Source: Dehalococcoidia bacterium
Lineage (GTDB): Bacteria; Chloroflexota; Dehalococcoidia; Tepidiformales; Tepidiformaceae
Reading direction: 5' to 3'
DNA: 32,516 bases
Assembly (NCBI GenBank): GCA_022827945.1
Contig: JAJEIT010000045.1
Span: forward strand, 1-32,516
Of this stretch, positions 18,022 through 23,350 are shown piece after piece. Position numbers and translations under genes: made by a program. The notes beneath the pieces are model-generated. The model was not told where the DNA came from. It did not search any database and saw only the letters and a list, made by a program, of their open reading frames with translations. Position 1 is the stretch's first letter. Every line of letters starts with the position of its first letter.

Positions 18022-20148
18022 CTACGCCAGCAGGTGCTCCTCGAAGTACGACACCAGCCGCCGCTCCATGTACTCCAGCCCCGCGGCGTCGCGGGGCATG
18101 TGGCGCTCCTCCGGGAAGATCTGGATGTCGTACGGCTTCTGCGTCGCCGTCAGCGCTGTGATCAGCCGTGCCGTGTGCCGGAAATGCACGTTCTCGTCGA
18201 CCATGCCGTGGACCAGCAGCAGCTTCCCGGACAGCCCCTCCACGTGCGTCGTCACCGCCCCCTCCCGGTACCCCTCCGGGTTGTCCTCGGGCGTCGACAT
18301 GTACCGCTCCGTGTACCCTGTGTCGTACCCGTCCCAGTCGACCACCGGCGCCCCCGCGACGCCCACGCGGAACACCTCCGGCGCGCGCATCAGCGACATG
18401 CAGGTCATGTAGCCGCCGTAGCTCCACCCGTAGATGCCGACCCGCTCCGGGTCGGCGAGCCCCTCCGCGACCAGCTGCTCGACGGCCGCTACCTGGTCCT
18501 CAACCTCGATCGTGCCCATGCGCCGGTGCAGGTGCGCCTCGAACGCGAGCCCGCGGTTGGCGCTCCCGCGGTTGTCGACCGCGAGCACGGCGAACCCCGC
18601 CTGCGCGAGGTACTGCGCGCGCAGGTCGACCGTCAACGCCCAGTCGTCGAGGACGCGCTGGGCGTGCGGTCCCCCGTACACCGATACGACGAGCGGGTGC
18701 GGCCCCTCCCCCTCCGGCCGGTACAGCGCCCCGAACATGGGCGTGCCGTCCGCGGCCGCCATCACGCGCAGATCCGGGGGCCGTAGCCCCTGCCCCGAGG
18801 CGGTCAGCTCCGGCTCCTCGTGCAGCGTCGCGATCACCTCGCCCCCCTCTGTGCGACGTAGCGTCGTCACCGCCGCCTGCTCCCGCGACGAGAACGTGTC
18901 GACGAACGCCGTCCCGTCCGGCGCGACTGTGCATCCGTGTACGCCCGGCTCGGCCGTGAGGCGCTCCACGTCCCCGCCGTCCAGCCCCACCCGGTACAGG
19001 TGCCGCTCCACTGCCCCCTCCCGAGTCCCGCTGAAGAACACGGTCCGCCCCGCCTCGTCCACCTCCACGATGCGCGTCACGACCCACTCCCCCGAAGTCA
19101 GCTCGCGTGCCTCGCGCAGCTCCGCGTCGTACAGGTAGAGGTGGCGGAACCCCGTCCTCTCGCTCGACCACAGCAACTCGCCCGTTTCGAGGAAGCGAAA
19201 GTCCCCGAGGTTCAGCCAGGGCTCGCTTCGCTCCTCGAGCGTGCGCAGCACGGTTCCTGTTTCCGCGTCGAACAGGTGCAGACGTAGCTCCGTCTGCGCG
19301 CGGTTCAGGACCATTCCCGCCAGCACGCCGTCGGGCCGCCAGACGACGCGCGGCAGGTAGATGTCGTCCTCCTCGCCGAGGTCCATCCAGACCGGTTCCC
19401 CGCCCGCCGCCGCCACGACCCCCAGCCGCACCCGCGCGTTTGGCGCCCCCGCGAACGGGTAGCGATGGTGCTCCGTGTCGAGCGCGTCCTGCCCCTGGTG
19501 GACGATTGGGTAGTCGGGGATATGCCGCGCGTCGACCTCGACGAAGGCGATGCGCGAGCCGTCCGGAGACCACCAGAACCCGTCGGATTGCCCGAACTCT
19601 TCCTGCGCGATGAAGTCCGCCAGCCCGTTGGTGAAACCGTCCTCCGCGCCGCTCGTGAGATGTCGTGCCTCCCTGCCCCCGGATGGCATCGCAAACAGCT
19701 CCCCCTCCCGCACGAACGCGAGCTGTGTGCCGTCGCTGGTCAGCCGAGGCGTGATCGCCCCCTCCGCCCCCTCGATTGGCGTCGGCTGTCCATCCCCCAC
19801 GATCAGCCGCGGGCCCTCGCCCCCCGGCAGCAGGATCGTGCGTTCCGGCGCCTTCGTGGCGAAGCGGTAGTCGGTCACACCCACGTCGCGGAGCCGTGCG
19901 CGCTCGCGGCGCAGCTCCTCCTCGCGTGAGATCGGCCCGCCCCCACCGGCCGGCCCCGCCAGCGGCCGCCGCTCCCCCGTCGCGACGTCATGCAGCCAGA
20001 GGCTCCGCACAAGTCCGCCGTCTTCGCTGGCGAGATACGTAATGCCGCTGCCGTCGGGCGTGAAGGACCAGCGCATCGGCCCGCCCATGCCCGGCCGCGG
20101 GTAGCGCGCTACCTGCTCGATAGAGATGCGCTCGTACGGGGCGGTCAC
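18022..20148 (-). CDS. S9 family peptidase (dipeptidyl peptidase IV / acylaminoacyl peptidase type)
   Basis: This 708-residue serine peptidase has an N-terminal beta-propeller (about 20-420; repeats such as SFTPDGSGITYLA, WSPDGSRIAFVEVD) that gates access, followed by an alpha/beta-hydrolase domain. The triad is visible: Ser576 in GWSYGGYMT, Asp651 in HGMVDENVHF, His683 in PEERHMPRD. Family members release dipeptides or acyl-amino acids from peptides. There is no signal peptide, so it is probably cytosolic. The start is GTG at 20148, overlapping the stop of the upstream M24 aminopeptidase gene (GTGA); the two are thus coupled and likely share a role in peptide turnover. Confidence 0.94.
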   Translation of the reverse strand: MTAPYERISIEQVARYPRPGMGGPMRWSFTPDGSGITYLASEDGGLVRSLWLHDVATGERRPLAGPAGGGGPISREEELRRERARLRDVGVTDYRFATKAPERTILLPGGEGPRLIVGDGQPTPIEGAEGAITPRLTSDGTQLAFVREGELFAMPSGGREARHLTSGAEDGFTNGLADFIAQEEFGQSDGFWWSPDGSRIAFVEVDARHIPDYPIVHQGQDALDTEHHRYPFAGAPNARVRLGVVAAAGGEPVWMDLGEEDDIYLPRVVWRPDGVLAGMVLNRAQTELRLHLFDAETGTVLRTLEERSEPWLNLGDFRFLETGELLWSSERTGFRHLYLYDAELREARELTSGEWVVTRIVEVDEAGRTVFFSGTREGAVERHLYRVGLDGGDVERLTAEPGVHGCTVAPDGTAFVDTFSSREQAAVTTLRRTEGGEVIATLHEEPELTASGQGLRPPDLRVMAAADGTPMFGALYRPEGEGPHPLVVSVYGGPHAQRVLDDWALTVDLRAQYLAQAGFAVLAVDNRGSANRGLAFEAHLHRRMGTIEVEDQVAAVEQLVAEGLADPERVGIYGWSYGGYMTCMSLMRAPEVFRVGVAGAPVVDWDGYDTGYTERYMSTPEDNPEGYREGAVTTHVEGLSGKLLLVHGMVDENVHFRHTARLITALTATQKPYDIQIFPEERHMPRDAAGLEYMERRLVSYFEEHLLA

Positions 20149-21542
20149 GCCTGCAGCCCCTCCGCGCGCAGCCCCTCGATCGCTTTGAGCGCCTTCGGCG
20201 TCGCCGCCGACAGCACTTCCGCCTCCGCCTCCGTGACCAGCACGTCGTCCTCGATGCGGATGCCGCCGAAGTCCAGCATCCCGTCGACCCGCTCCCAGTC
20301 CACGTCGTCCCGGTATCGCTCGCGCAAGTCGGGGTCCTCCAGCAGCGCCCGGATGAAATAGATGCCCGGCTCGATGGTCACGACATAACCCGGCTGCAGG
20401 GGCAGGTCCGCCCGCAGGTAGCGCAGCGTCGGGCGGTCGCTCGGCAGGCGACCCTCAAGGCACCCGCCGGCGTCGTGCGTGGCCAGTCCCAGCATGTGCC
20501 CGAGCCCGTGAGGGAAGAACAGCGCCTGCGCGTCTCGCTCGACCAGCCCCTCCGCGTCACCCCGCAGCAGCCCCAGGTCGACGAGCCCCTCCGCGATCTC
20601 GACGCTCGCCGCCAGGTGCAAATCCTTGTACTCCACCCCAGGCCGCGCCCCCGCGATCGCGCGCTCCTGCACGCCCAGCACGAGCGCGTACAGGTCACGC
20701 TGCACGCCCTCGAATCGAGCTCCCACCGGATACGTCCGCGTCAAGTCGCTCGCGTAGCCGCCCACCTCCGCCCCCGCGTCGACCAGGATCAGCTCGCCCT
20801 CGCCGAGCTCGCGTGCGGTGGGAGCGAAGTGCAGGGTCGCGGCGTTCGGCCCGCCCCCCACGATCGACCCGTACGCCGTACGCTCCGCCCCAGCCCGGAA
20901 GAACTCGACCTCGATTTCGATCTGCAGCGCCCGCTCCGACATCCCCGCCCGCGCCTTGCGCAGCCCCGCCATGTGCCCCCGATGTGTCGCCGCCGCCGCC
21001 TCACGCATCAGCGCCAGCTCGCGCGGGTCCTTCGCCCGGCGCAACTCTGCGACGACCATGCGAAGCCGCTCGCTCTCCTCCTCGTCGGTCGCGAACTCCA
21101 GGCTGGCCCACGACTCCACCCCGTATTCCCCCGCCCGCAGCGTGATGTCGTCGTTGCCGATGACCGCCAGCGGCTCGCCCCGCCGCCGCTCCAGCCACCC
21201 CCCGAGCTCGGACGCGGGCTGCACACGCTCCACCCCCGACGCCTCCTCCACCGCCGCCAGCGACGGGCCGTCGCCCGTCCAGACTCGCTCCGCTGCCTCC
21301 GGCTGGGGCACGAACAGCGTCCACCCCTCGCCCGCTTCGAACGCCAGCACCCCGCCCGGCTGCCCCACCCCCGAAAGGTAACGGTGCTCCGGGTGCGCGT
21401 GGTACTCGTGGAACTGGTCCGTGCCCGCGACTGGCAGCATCAGCCCCGCCGGCACGAGCACGACGCCCCGGTCGAGGTTCCAGCGCTCCCCCGCGCGCTC
21501 CCGCCGCTGGCCGACGAGCGCAGCCGCTTCCTTCTGCTGCAT
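20145..21542 (-). CDS. pepP: M24 family aminopeptidase P (Xaa-Pro aminopeptidase)
   Basis: This 465-residue two-domain enzyme removes an N-terminal residue that precedes proline. The N-terminal AMP_N-type domain contains HPEHRYLSGV. The pita-bread catalytic domain has the dinuclear metal ligands D255 (LVDAGAE), D266 (ASDLTRTYP), H349 (HGLGHMLG), E391 (TIEPGIYF) and E431 (GIRIEDD), spaced as in E. coli PepP. The downstream S9 peptidase, translationally coupled by a GTGA overlap, would complement it in breaking proline-containing peptides. A -10-like TACACT ends 6 nt before the ATG, implying a leaderless mRNA. Confidence 0.93.
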   Translation of the reverse strand: MQQKEAAALVGQRRERAGERWNLDRGVVLVPAGLMLPVAGTDQFHEYHAHPEHRYLSGVGQPGGVLAFEAGEGWTLFVPQPEAAERVWTGDGPSLAAVEEASGVERVQPASELGGWLERRRGEPLAVIGNDDITLRAGEYGVESWASLEFATDEEESERLRMVVAELRRAKDPRELALMREAAAATHRGHMAGLRKARAGMSERALQIEIEVEFFRAGAERTAYGSIVGGGPNAATLHFAPTARELGEGELILVDAGAEVGGYASDLTRTYPVGARFEGVQRDLYALVLGVQERAIAGARPGVEYKDLHLAASVEIAEGLVDLGLLRGDAEGLVERDAQALFFPHGLGHMLGLATHDAGGCLEGRLPSDRPTLRYLRADLPLQPGYVVTIEPGIYFIRALLEDPDLRERYRDDVDWERVDGMLDFGGIRIEDDVLVTEAEAEVLSAATPKALKAIEGLRAEGLQA

Positions 21543-21548
21543 GTCCGC

Positions 21549-21554
21549 AGTGTA
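21549..21554 (-). promoter_or_regulatory. Candidate -10 TACACT implying a leaderless pepP transcript
   Basis: The minus-strand TACACT ends 6 nt before the ATG at 21542, so transcription should start at or next to the A of the start codon. No purine-rich ribosome site is present. Confidence 0.45.
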
Positions 21555-21587
21555 GCGATCTCCCCTCGATCCCCGCCCGCGCGGGTG

Positions 21588-21593
21588 TACGCT
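21588..21593 (+). promoter_or_regulatory. Candidate -10 TACGCT for the molybdopterin oxidoreductase gene
   Basis: TACGCT is 33 nt upstream of ATG 21627, within the 84-bp gap shared with the divergent pepP. GCAGGGGAC may serve as a weak ribosome site. Confidence 0.35.
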
Positions 21594-21626
21594 GGACGTG
21601 ACCTCCCCGATGCGGCAGGGGACTCC

Positions 21627-22664
21627 ATGAACGCCCGCGCCACCAACCTCGCCCTCTTCTTTCTGCTTCTGCTGGAGCTGGTGTCCGGGCTCGCAAGCTT
21701 CCTGGTCGGCAGCCCCGAGGGTCGCTGGGTCTTCTGGCTGCACAGCGCCGGTGGGCTCTCGATCGTCGTCCTGCTCGTCTGGAAGTGGCGCATCGTCGTG
21801 CGCTCCTTCGCCCGCCGGGGCGCTGGTCTCTGGTCGCTCGCGCCCGCCCTCCTCGGAGTGCTCTTCCTGGGCATCCTGCTGACCGGCCTGTGGTGGCTCG
21901 TCGTCGGACGGGGGACCCTGCTCGTGCCCTGGTACGGAGAGATGCGGCCGCTCGTGCTGCACACCATCCTCGGCCTCGCGCTCGTGCCGTTCTTCGCCTT
22001 GCACGTCGTGTTGCGCTGGCCACGCCGCCCCGCTGCTGCCTTCGCGAGCCGCCGCGCCGTCCTGAGGCTCTTCGCCGTCGGAGGGGTGGGCTTCGCGCTC
22101 TCCCGGGGACTGGCTGCCGCCGCCCCCCACTCGGGCCCCGACCGACGCTTCACCGGCTCCCGAGAGGAGGCGAGCTTCACCGGCAACGCCCATCCCGTCA
22201 CCAACTGGCTCTTCGACAACCGCCAGCGCCTTCCGGTGGACGAGTGGCGCCTCGAAGTCCGGGGCGAAGTGCGGGAGCCGCTCACCCTCGGCTACGACGA
22301 TCTGACCGCCCTCGCCGAACGCACGCGTCGCGCCACCCTCGATTGCACCGGCGGCTGGTACACGGTGCAGGACTGGAGCGGCGTCCCTCTCGCCGCCGTC
22401 CTCGAACGCGCCGGCCTGACCGACGACGCCCACAGCGTCGTCGTCACCTCCGCGACCGGATTCAGCCGTCGCTTCGGGCTGGGCACGGTCCCGCGGCTTC
22501 TGCTCGCCACGCAGGTCGGTGGCGAGCGTCTCAGCTCGGGCCACGGATTCCCCGTACGACTCGTCGCGCCGGGGCGCCGCGGCTACAACTGGGTGAAGTG
22601 GGTCGTGAGCATCGAGGTCAGCCACCGTCCCGGCTGGTGGCAATCGCCCCTCCCCACGCAGTAG
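21627..22664 (+). CDS. Membrane-anchored molybdopterin oxidoreductase (sulfite oxidase/MsrP family) with b-type-like N-domain
   Basis: This 345-residue protein has four predicted membrane helices in residues 7-131. Histidines H39, H112 and H126 lie at or near helix ends and may ligate heme b. A fifth hydrophobic stretch (144-165) is preceded by SRRAVLRLF, a twin-arginine-like motif. Residues 170-345 form an oxidoreductase molybdopterin-binding domain, with C240 in LDCTGGWYTVQDWSG as the molybdenum thiolate ligand and a WVVSIEV C-terminal end. The sulfite-oxidase dimerisation domain is absent, as in MsrP. The domain probably faces outward and passes electrons to the membrane part, resembling an MsrP-MsrQ pair in one chain. 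The substrate is unknown. Confidence 0.85.
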   Translation: MNARATNLALFFLLLLELVSGLASFLVGSPEGRWVFWLHSAGGLSIVVLLVWKWRIVVRSFARRGAGLWSLAPALLGVLFLGILLTGLWWLVVGRGTLLVPWYGEMRPLVLHTILGLALVPFFALHVVLRWPRRPAAAFASRRAVLRLFAVGGVGFALSRGLAAAAPHSGPDRRFTGSREEASFTGNAHPVTNWLFDNRQRLPVDEWRLEVRGEVREPLTLGYDDLTALAERTRRATLDCTGGWYTVQDWSGVPLAAVLERAGLTDDAHSVVVTSATGFSRRFGLGTVPRLLLATQVGGERLSSGHGFPVRLVAPGRRGYNWVKWVVSIEVSHRPGWWQSPLPTQ

Positions 22665-22680
22665 GGTCGGTCGCACCCCC

Positions 22681-23350
22681 ATGCGAATCGGCGAGTCAGC
22701 AATCGAAGTTCTCGTCTTCGACCTCTTCGGTGTCCTCATCTCCTTCGACGACGACTTGGTGATCGCGCGCCTCGCGCGCCACTGCGCCGACCCCACCGGC
22801 GCCTTCGAGCGGCTCCACAAGCTCACCGCCCGCCACGACGTCATCACCGGCGAAACGACGCTACCCCAGGTCCACCGCGAGCTCGTCGACACCCATCGGC
22901 TCACCCTTTCCTATCCAGAATTTCGAAGCTGCCTGGCTCGAGCCCTACCACCGGCCGATTCCCGGCATGGCGGAGCTCGTCGAAGGGCTGTCGAGGCACT
23001 ACCGGCTGGTGTTGCTCTCCAACGTCGATCGGGACTACTGGCGAGTCGTGCGCGGGATGCACCCGGAGCTGGACCACTTCGAGGCACTGCTAGTATCCGC
23101 CGACCTTGGCATGGCGAAGCCCGACCCCGAGATATTTCGGCATGTCTGCCAGTTGACCGGCACAGAGCCGCAGCAGTGCCTCTTCATCGATGACACGGCC
23201 CAGAACGTCGATGCCGCCCGAGCGCTCGGGTTCCATGGGCACGTCTTTCGTTCAGTCCCCGAACTGCGTGCGGCGCTGAGACAGTCCGGCGCGAGGCCCT
23301 GTAGCGAGCGCCTGCTGCCGTGGCAGGCGCGTTTCCCTGCCCCTCGGTAG
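22681..23350 (+). pseudogene. HAD-superfamily hydrolase, interrupted by a single-base frameshift
   Basis: Together the two frames encode a full HAD hydrolase of the haloacid-dehalogenase-like class. The first frame (22681 to about 22923) has motif I VFDLFGVLI with nucleophile D14 and a C1-type cap. The second frame (to 23350) has motif II VLLSNVD, the motif III lysine in MAKPDPEIF, and motif IV CLFIDDTAQNVDAA. The switch occurs at TTT 22921-22923: removing one T gives a continuous PEFEAAWLEPYHRP reading. All catalytic motifs are intact, so this is either a very recent mutation or a sequencing/assembly error. It lies 16 nt after the molybdoenzyme gene and 11 nt before the DUF3090 gene, so it may be co-transcribed. 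Confidence 0.82.

Follow-up and report, generated by a model that had tools for sequence, protein, structure and literature searches.

The 345-residue protein encoded at positions 21627..22664 on the forward strand of the window, by which we mean the whole 32,516-nucleotide stretch of Dehalococcoidia DNA analysed here, is in all probability a membrane-bound oxidoreductase of the Sco3746 type with its own electron partner built in, in which helices 1-4 would bind heme b and be inserted by Sec, while a C-terminal molybdenum cofactor (Moco) domain would be exported by Tat. Neither this architecture nor the dual routing, nor its examination by RR-to-KK substitution, is new: all were published in 2017 for Sco3746 (Tooke et al., 2017, eLife 6:e26577, PMC5449189), so that the novelty originally seen in the dual routing of a Moco enzyme no longer holds. 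What goes beyond that work, as far as its available text extends, is a perfectly conserved membrane lysine, K53, at the position expected of the fourth heme ligand, which is otherwise missing. The architecture, conservation, fold and the TatC and Moco genes described below come from the present analysis, whereas the Sec/Tat routing draws on the literature on the homologue.

The reading frame opens with an ATG at 21627 and ends with a stop codon at 22662-22664. Same-genus homologues, at 75-96% identity, retain both start and length, and comparison with the relative at L005 gives 11, 8 and 89 differences at the first, second and third codon positions; 83 of the codon changes are synonymous and 14 non-synonymous. 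On this sequence comparison the frame is under purifying selection, and the retained start and length together with the mostly third-position differences mark it as a real gene. An antisense ORF of 919 aa (20145-22904, reverse strand) spans the entire gene, and was rejected as a true gene because of the codon-position differences; its M24 aminopeptidase occupies the C-terminal half only (20145-21542), and the remainder is a high-GC antisense open frame, which, given the purifying selection on the 345-aa frame, we regard as a by-product of base composition.

Consistent with the original prediction, the ORF, AF2 and Pfam together reveal four membrane helices, the motif SRRAVLRLF, a fifth hydrophobic stretch and a molybdopterin domain. 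The full-length AF2 model, built with 69 homologues (pLDDT 84.7, pTM 0.79), contains five helices followed by a beta-rich domain, and modelling of the membrane part alone (pLDDT 92.1, pTM 0.85) places the helices at residues 3-26 (TM1, 21633..21704), 34-64 (TM2, 21726..21818), 68-93 (TM3, 21828..21905), 108-130 (TM4, 21948..22016) and 142-165 (TM5, annotated at 22068..22121), all on the forward strand. With 5 and 6 lysines or arginines in the inner loops and 1 and 2 in the outer ones, the charge distribution fits a cytoplasmic N-terminus and a Moco domain that would lie outside.

The catalytic part (residues 200-335, 22224..22631) adopts the sulfite oxidase/MsrP fold and matches Pfam Oxidored_molyb (PF00174) over residues 204-335 with E=6e-32 and 111 bits against a cutoff of 24. 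It carries the predicted Mo ligand C240 (22344..22346, motif LDCTGGW), and thus both the domain and the Mo-ligating cysteine by which the PF00174 superfamily is recognised. The domain resembles sulfite dehydrogenase, SoxC and MsrP structures (2blf, Z 20.9, rmsd 2.9, 171 aligned; MsrP 1xdq, Z 17.0, rmsd 2.6, 161 aligned), yet the solved members are longer: our protein stops after the Moco domain, and there is no match to the dimerisation domain PF03404. A sulfite oxidase proper (SorA, SorT, SoxC) is not indicated either, with 63.4 bits against an equivalog cutoff of 420, and the cutoffs of the other equivalogs are likewise not reached.

How general is this arrangement? The collection scan yielded at least 80 named loci, and 577 of the candidate stretches were confirmed as relatives. 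The listed loci come from Chloroflexota, Actinomycetota/Rubrobacter MAGs and Halobacteria, and include the same-genus homologue L067 (OY282446.1), labelled Tepidiformaceae (Chloroflexota); plasmid matches yielded a Kitasatospora relative. The twin arginines R142/R143 of SRRAVLRLF (residues 141-149, 22047..22073) are present in 80/80 of the matches listed, and H39, K53, H112, H126 and C240 each in 79/79, one partial sequence having no residue at each of these positions. The internal Tat motif, the cysteine and the three histidines on which the original prediction had relied are therefore all retained, and homologues lacking the RR pair, which would have spoken against it, were looked for and not found among these matches. 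In a membrane-part alignment of 69 members, the invariant residues are G21, H39, K53, G87, H112, H126, R142 and R143, the first six being the sole invariants of residues 1-141. A phylum-wide search of the Chloroflexota left this picture unchanged.

The presence of an RR pair is by itself weak evidence, because the protein contains seven of them. R142/R143, however, is the only conserved one (69/69 homologues), whereas the six others are kept in 3 to 55 of the 69, and a chance origin of the pair was accordingly dismissed on grounds of conservation. The Pfam TAT_signal profile recognises 6/69 family members (best 4e-5). The helix that follows is the least hydrophobic of the five, its best 17-mer averaging 1.51 on the Kyte-Doolittle scale as opposed to 2.04-2.34 in TM1-4; the corresponding family means are 1.27 and 1.94-2.25, and at least two lysines or arginines follow TM5 in 69/69 homologues. 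A weak last helix with trailing positive charges matches the Sec-to-Tat handover signature of Tooke et al. (2017), who used a dGapp predictor rather than the Kyte-Doolittle scale. By homology, TM5 would thus be the Tat-dependent helix.

The relevant precedent emerged when these authors, according to the available text of the article, screened for twin-arginine motifs preceded by an even number of TMDs and recovered Sco3746 and homologues from Actinobacteria, Firmicutes, Chloroflexi and Euryarchaeota (Tooke et al., 2017). The same text describes Sco3746 of Streptomyces as having five TMDs, demonstrated by cysteine labelling, heme histidines, an RR pair before TMD5 and a C-terminal Moco domain; Sec insertion was established, Tat dependence was demonstrated through fusions to MBP and AmiA and through RR-to-KK substitution, release from Sec was ascribed to the weak last TMD and the positive charges after it, and the family was compared with MsrP/MsrQ. 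Our protein shares each of these family features as described there, namely five TMDs and a Moco domain at the C-terminus, RR directly before TMD5, three conserved TMD histidines and a weak TMD5 followed by positive charges, and differs in being a compact member of 345 aa with short loops. The presumed kinship to Sco3746 itself (Q9L0V6) is based on the published description, together with proteins from Actinobacteria that match in loop spacing and share the H-x13-K, H-x13-H, RR and Moco pattern. By analogy with Sco3746, the dual Sec/Tat routing of the 345-aa protein, as originally proposed, is very likely, and the invariance of the RR pair before the last helix, now seen in a much larger set than the examples in the 2017 text, indicates that dual Sec/Tat assembly is the rule in enzymes of this type. 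The actinobacterial Rieske protein Sco2149 also takes the dual route and has an internal twin-arginine motif ahead of its last helix, but it carries an Fe-S cluster domain and three TMDs, and its membrane part has no described heme partner.

What kind of cytochrome does the membrane part represent? Its closest fold matches outside the GPCRs are b cytochromes at Z 8-11, in keeping with a four-helix heme-binding fold: hydrogenase-1 cytochrome b (6g94, Z 11.0, rmsd 3.1, 122 aligned), superoxide oxidase (CybB, 5oc0, Z 10.3, rmsd 3.8, 130 aligned) and formate dehydrogenase cytochrome b (1kqf_C, Z 8.8, rmsd 4.5, 135 aligned). Cytochrome b of bc/b6f complexes also appears, mixed with GPCR bundles that reach Z 9.4, so that, taken by itself, the fold match of the helices is modest; we prefer the cytochromes because they are the sole matches compatible with the conserved histidines. 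Weak Pfam matches point the same way, to cytochrome b561 (Ni_hydr_CYTB) in 50/69 members and to DUF4405 in 15/69, with scores of 8-13 bits that stay below the gathering cutoffs of 26.7-30.1 (best family members, E 1.8e-5 and 2.6e-5). A ferric-reductase-like transmembrane domain, on the other hand, found no match in the protein at E up to 10 and is absent from the 25 families listed for the 69 members, and homology of the membrane part to MsrQ was discarded on this ground. The membrane part is therefore a four-helix b-type cytochrome resembling cytochrome b561, DUF4405, HyaC and CybB, and not the ferric-reductase domain of MsrQ.

This distinction bears on the notion of an MsrQ-MsrP fusion, which was part of the original prediction and survives as an analogy, though not as homology. 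In MsrPQ (YedYZ), a heme-b membrane partner likewise feeds a periplasmic Moco enzyme of the same fold, and MsrP 1xdq ranks with the nearest solved structures in both sequence and fold. MsrPQ nevertheless consists of two proteins, of which MsrQ belongs to the ferric-reductase class, whereas here four helices and an anchor show no ferric-reductase match, the Moco domain is shorter, and the score for the NCBIfam MsrP model, 60.8 bits, stays below the cutoff of 207. We thus consider it improbable that the protein represents a genuine MsrPQ fusion with methionine sulfoxide reductase activity.

The predicted heme ligands display a conspicuous symmetry. TM4 carries H112 (21960..21962) and H126 (22002..22004), TM2 carries H39 (21741..21743) and K53 (21783..21785), and either pair is spaced by 14 residues (H112-x13-H126, H39-x13-K53). 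K53 was not on the residue list of the original prediction, and we found no discussion of an invariant TM2 lysine in the available text of Tooke et al. (2017), where three histidines are described as conserved and a fourth, marked 'H?' at the N-terminal end of TMD3, as not conserved. The related cytochromes HyaC, CybB, FdnI and DUF4405 share with our protein the helical bundle, the TM4 H-x13-H and a TM2 histidine near the outer side, but have four histidine ligands; our protein lacks the fourth, and the invariant lysine lies 14 residues past the TM2 histidine. On the ligand pattern, H39 and H112 probably hold an outer heme b and H126 an inner one, for which the simplest reading is that the lysine replaces the fourth histidine.

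We tentatively extend this reading to the heme-Moco dual-targeted superfamily of Chloroflexota, Actinomycetota and Halobacteria, whose membrane part would be a di-heme b cytochrome with the inner heme on His126/Lys53 in place of the proposed, non-conserved fourth histidine; we rate this refinement of the Sco3746-type assignment as a serious possibility somewhat short of an even chance. It would account for K53 being one of only six invariants of residues 1-141 and for its place in a TM2 pattern that mirrors TM4. The H-x13-K, H-x13-H and RR patterns are invariant in eight divergent proteins with 25-32% identity to the first sequence of the alignment, and H-x13-K and H-x13-H recur in 34/34 loci of a wider set. 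This set includes four actinobacterial proteins (L222, L226, L228, L232) which fit the description of Sco3746 in the available text in their TM1-TM2 spacing and in the N-terminal histidine of TM3, and which we infer to be its orthologues. In the Sco3746-like group (LAKLWSVVPRLF), the distance from the lysine to the next charge is at least that of the TM4 histidine; LWSVVP or a similar segment separates it from the next arginine, so that the lysine is at least as buried as the inner TM4 histidine. Stand-alone DUF4405 cytochromes, moreover, show His-x13-His in both helices, with a histidine at the TM2 spacing equivalent to K53 in 7/7. A profile alignment of DUF4405 with the family (hhalign) is less accommodating, as TM4 is in register but TM2 is off by a few residues. 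The invariant glycines G21 and G87 lie on the outer side only, and we found no precedent for a His/Lys-ligated membrane heme b in the open-access literature.

The confinement of the invariant glycines to the outer side would equally suit a protein with a single heme on H39/H112, in which K53 and H126 form an inner-side quinone-binding and proton-relay site, much as the quinone site of superoxide oxidase adjoins the cytoplasmic heme and uses histidines. Against this stands the TM4 H-x13-H, which is the classic two-heme spacing, as in DUF4405, and the fact that electrons would have to cross about 20 A from the inner side (a helix-rise estimate) if the inner heme were missing; we hold the single-heme arrangement to be a real possibility, though somewhat less likely than the His/Lys heme. 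If the His/Lys heme is real, it would be unusual for a membrane b cytochrome and could tune the redox potential and the delivery of electrons to Mo, and the invariant lysine would offer a concrete, testable answer to the question of the second heme ligand left by the 2017 study, as its available text presents it.

How might such a protein be assembled and work? We envision that Sec inserts helices 1-4, which bind heme b, with the outer heme on H39/H112 and the inner heme probably on H126, and that Sec fails to retain helix 5, whose hydrophobicity is too low and whose trailing positive charges are too numerous, and lets the chain go. Still in the cytoplasm, the C-terminal domain would then fold together with its molybdenum cofactor, whereupon the Tat machinery would recognise R142/R143 and move the folded domain outside, helix 5 staying behind as an anchor. 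TatC and MoaA are found in the genome. The hemes might relay electrons between an inner-side quinone, or a cytoplasmic donor, and the outer Mo site, as MsrQ does for MsrP; we infer both the number of hemes and the direction of electron flow. A first guess at the reaction is the reduction of a sulfoxide-like or oxo substrate.

The surroundings of the gene provide no obvious partner. An Xaa-Pro aminopeptidase (PF00557) lies on the opposite strand, and the other neighbours are a DPP-IV-type peptidase, a HAD-like gene, DUF3090, an alpha/beta hydrolase and a luciferase-like monooxygenase. With a crude ORF caller, no recurring neighbour was seen in 13 homologous loci, and an operon partner was dropped from consideration for this reason; the result is consistent with a stand-alone enzyme that carries its own electron partner.

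Several minor observations accompany this analysis. W90, near the outer end of TM3, is nearly invariant elsewhere but is a histidine (AGxxHSTG) in one Chloroflexota subgroup (L034, L036, L038, L117, L124 and relatives), where it may conceivably serve as an extra or alternative ligand for the outer heme. A 203-aa open frame at a DUF4405 locus (L180) encodes a DUF4405 segment followed by AMSRRAFLAL, which suggests that fusion to a Tat-exported domain may occur among true DUF4405 cytochromes (His-x13-His) as well. The genome contains four PF00174 genes, one of which (L003:1081-3102, reverse strand, contig C95) encodes a 674-aa protein with several predicted membrane helices, a PF00174 domain and the RR motif PARRRFLYLA before the last helix, with a weak match to the Pfam Tat-signal family UCR_Fe-S_N (E 4e-4). 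No conserved heme histidines were seen in this type of protein, also encoded at L013, L016, L019, L025 and L150, and it is possibly a second, heme-free dual Sec/Tat Moco protein. Just downstream of our gene, the HAD-like hydrolase gene (22681-23350, forward strand), labelled by its sequence motifs as it has no Pfam match, appears split between two reading frames, with the N-terminal half in one ORF and the C-terminal motif FIDDT in another; in its relatives at L062 and L063 the N-terminal open frame is longer, at 231 codons, and the split could reflect a frameshift or an assembly error.
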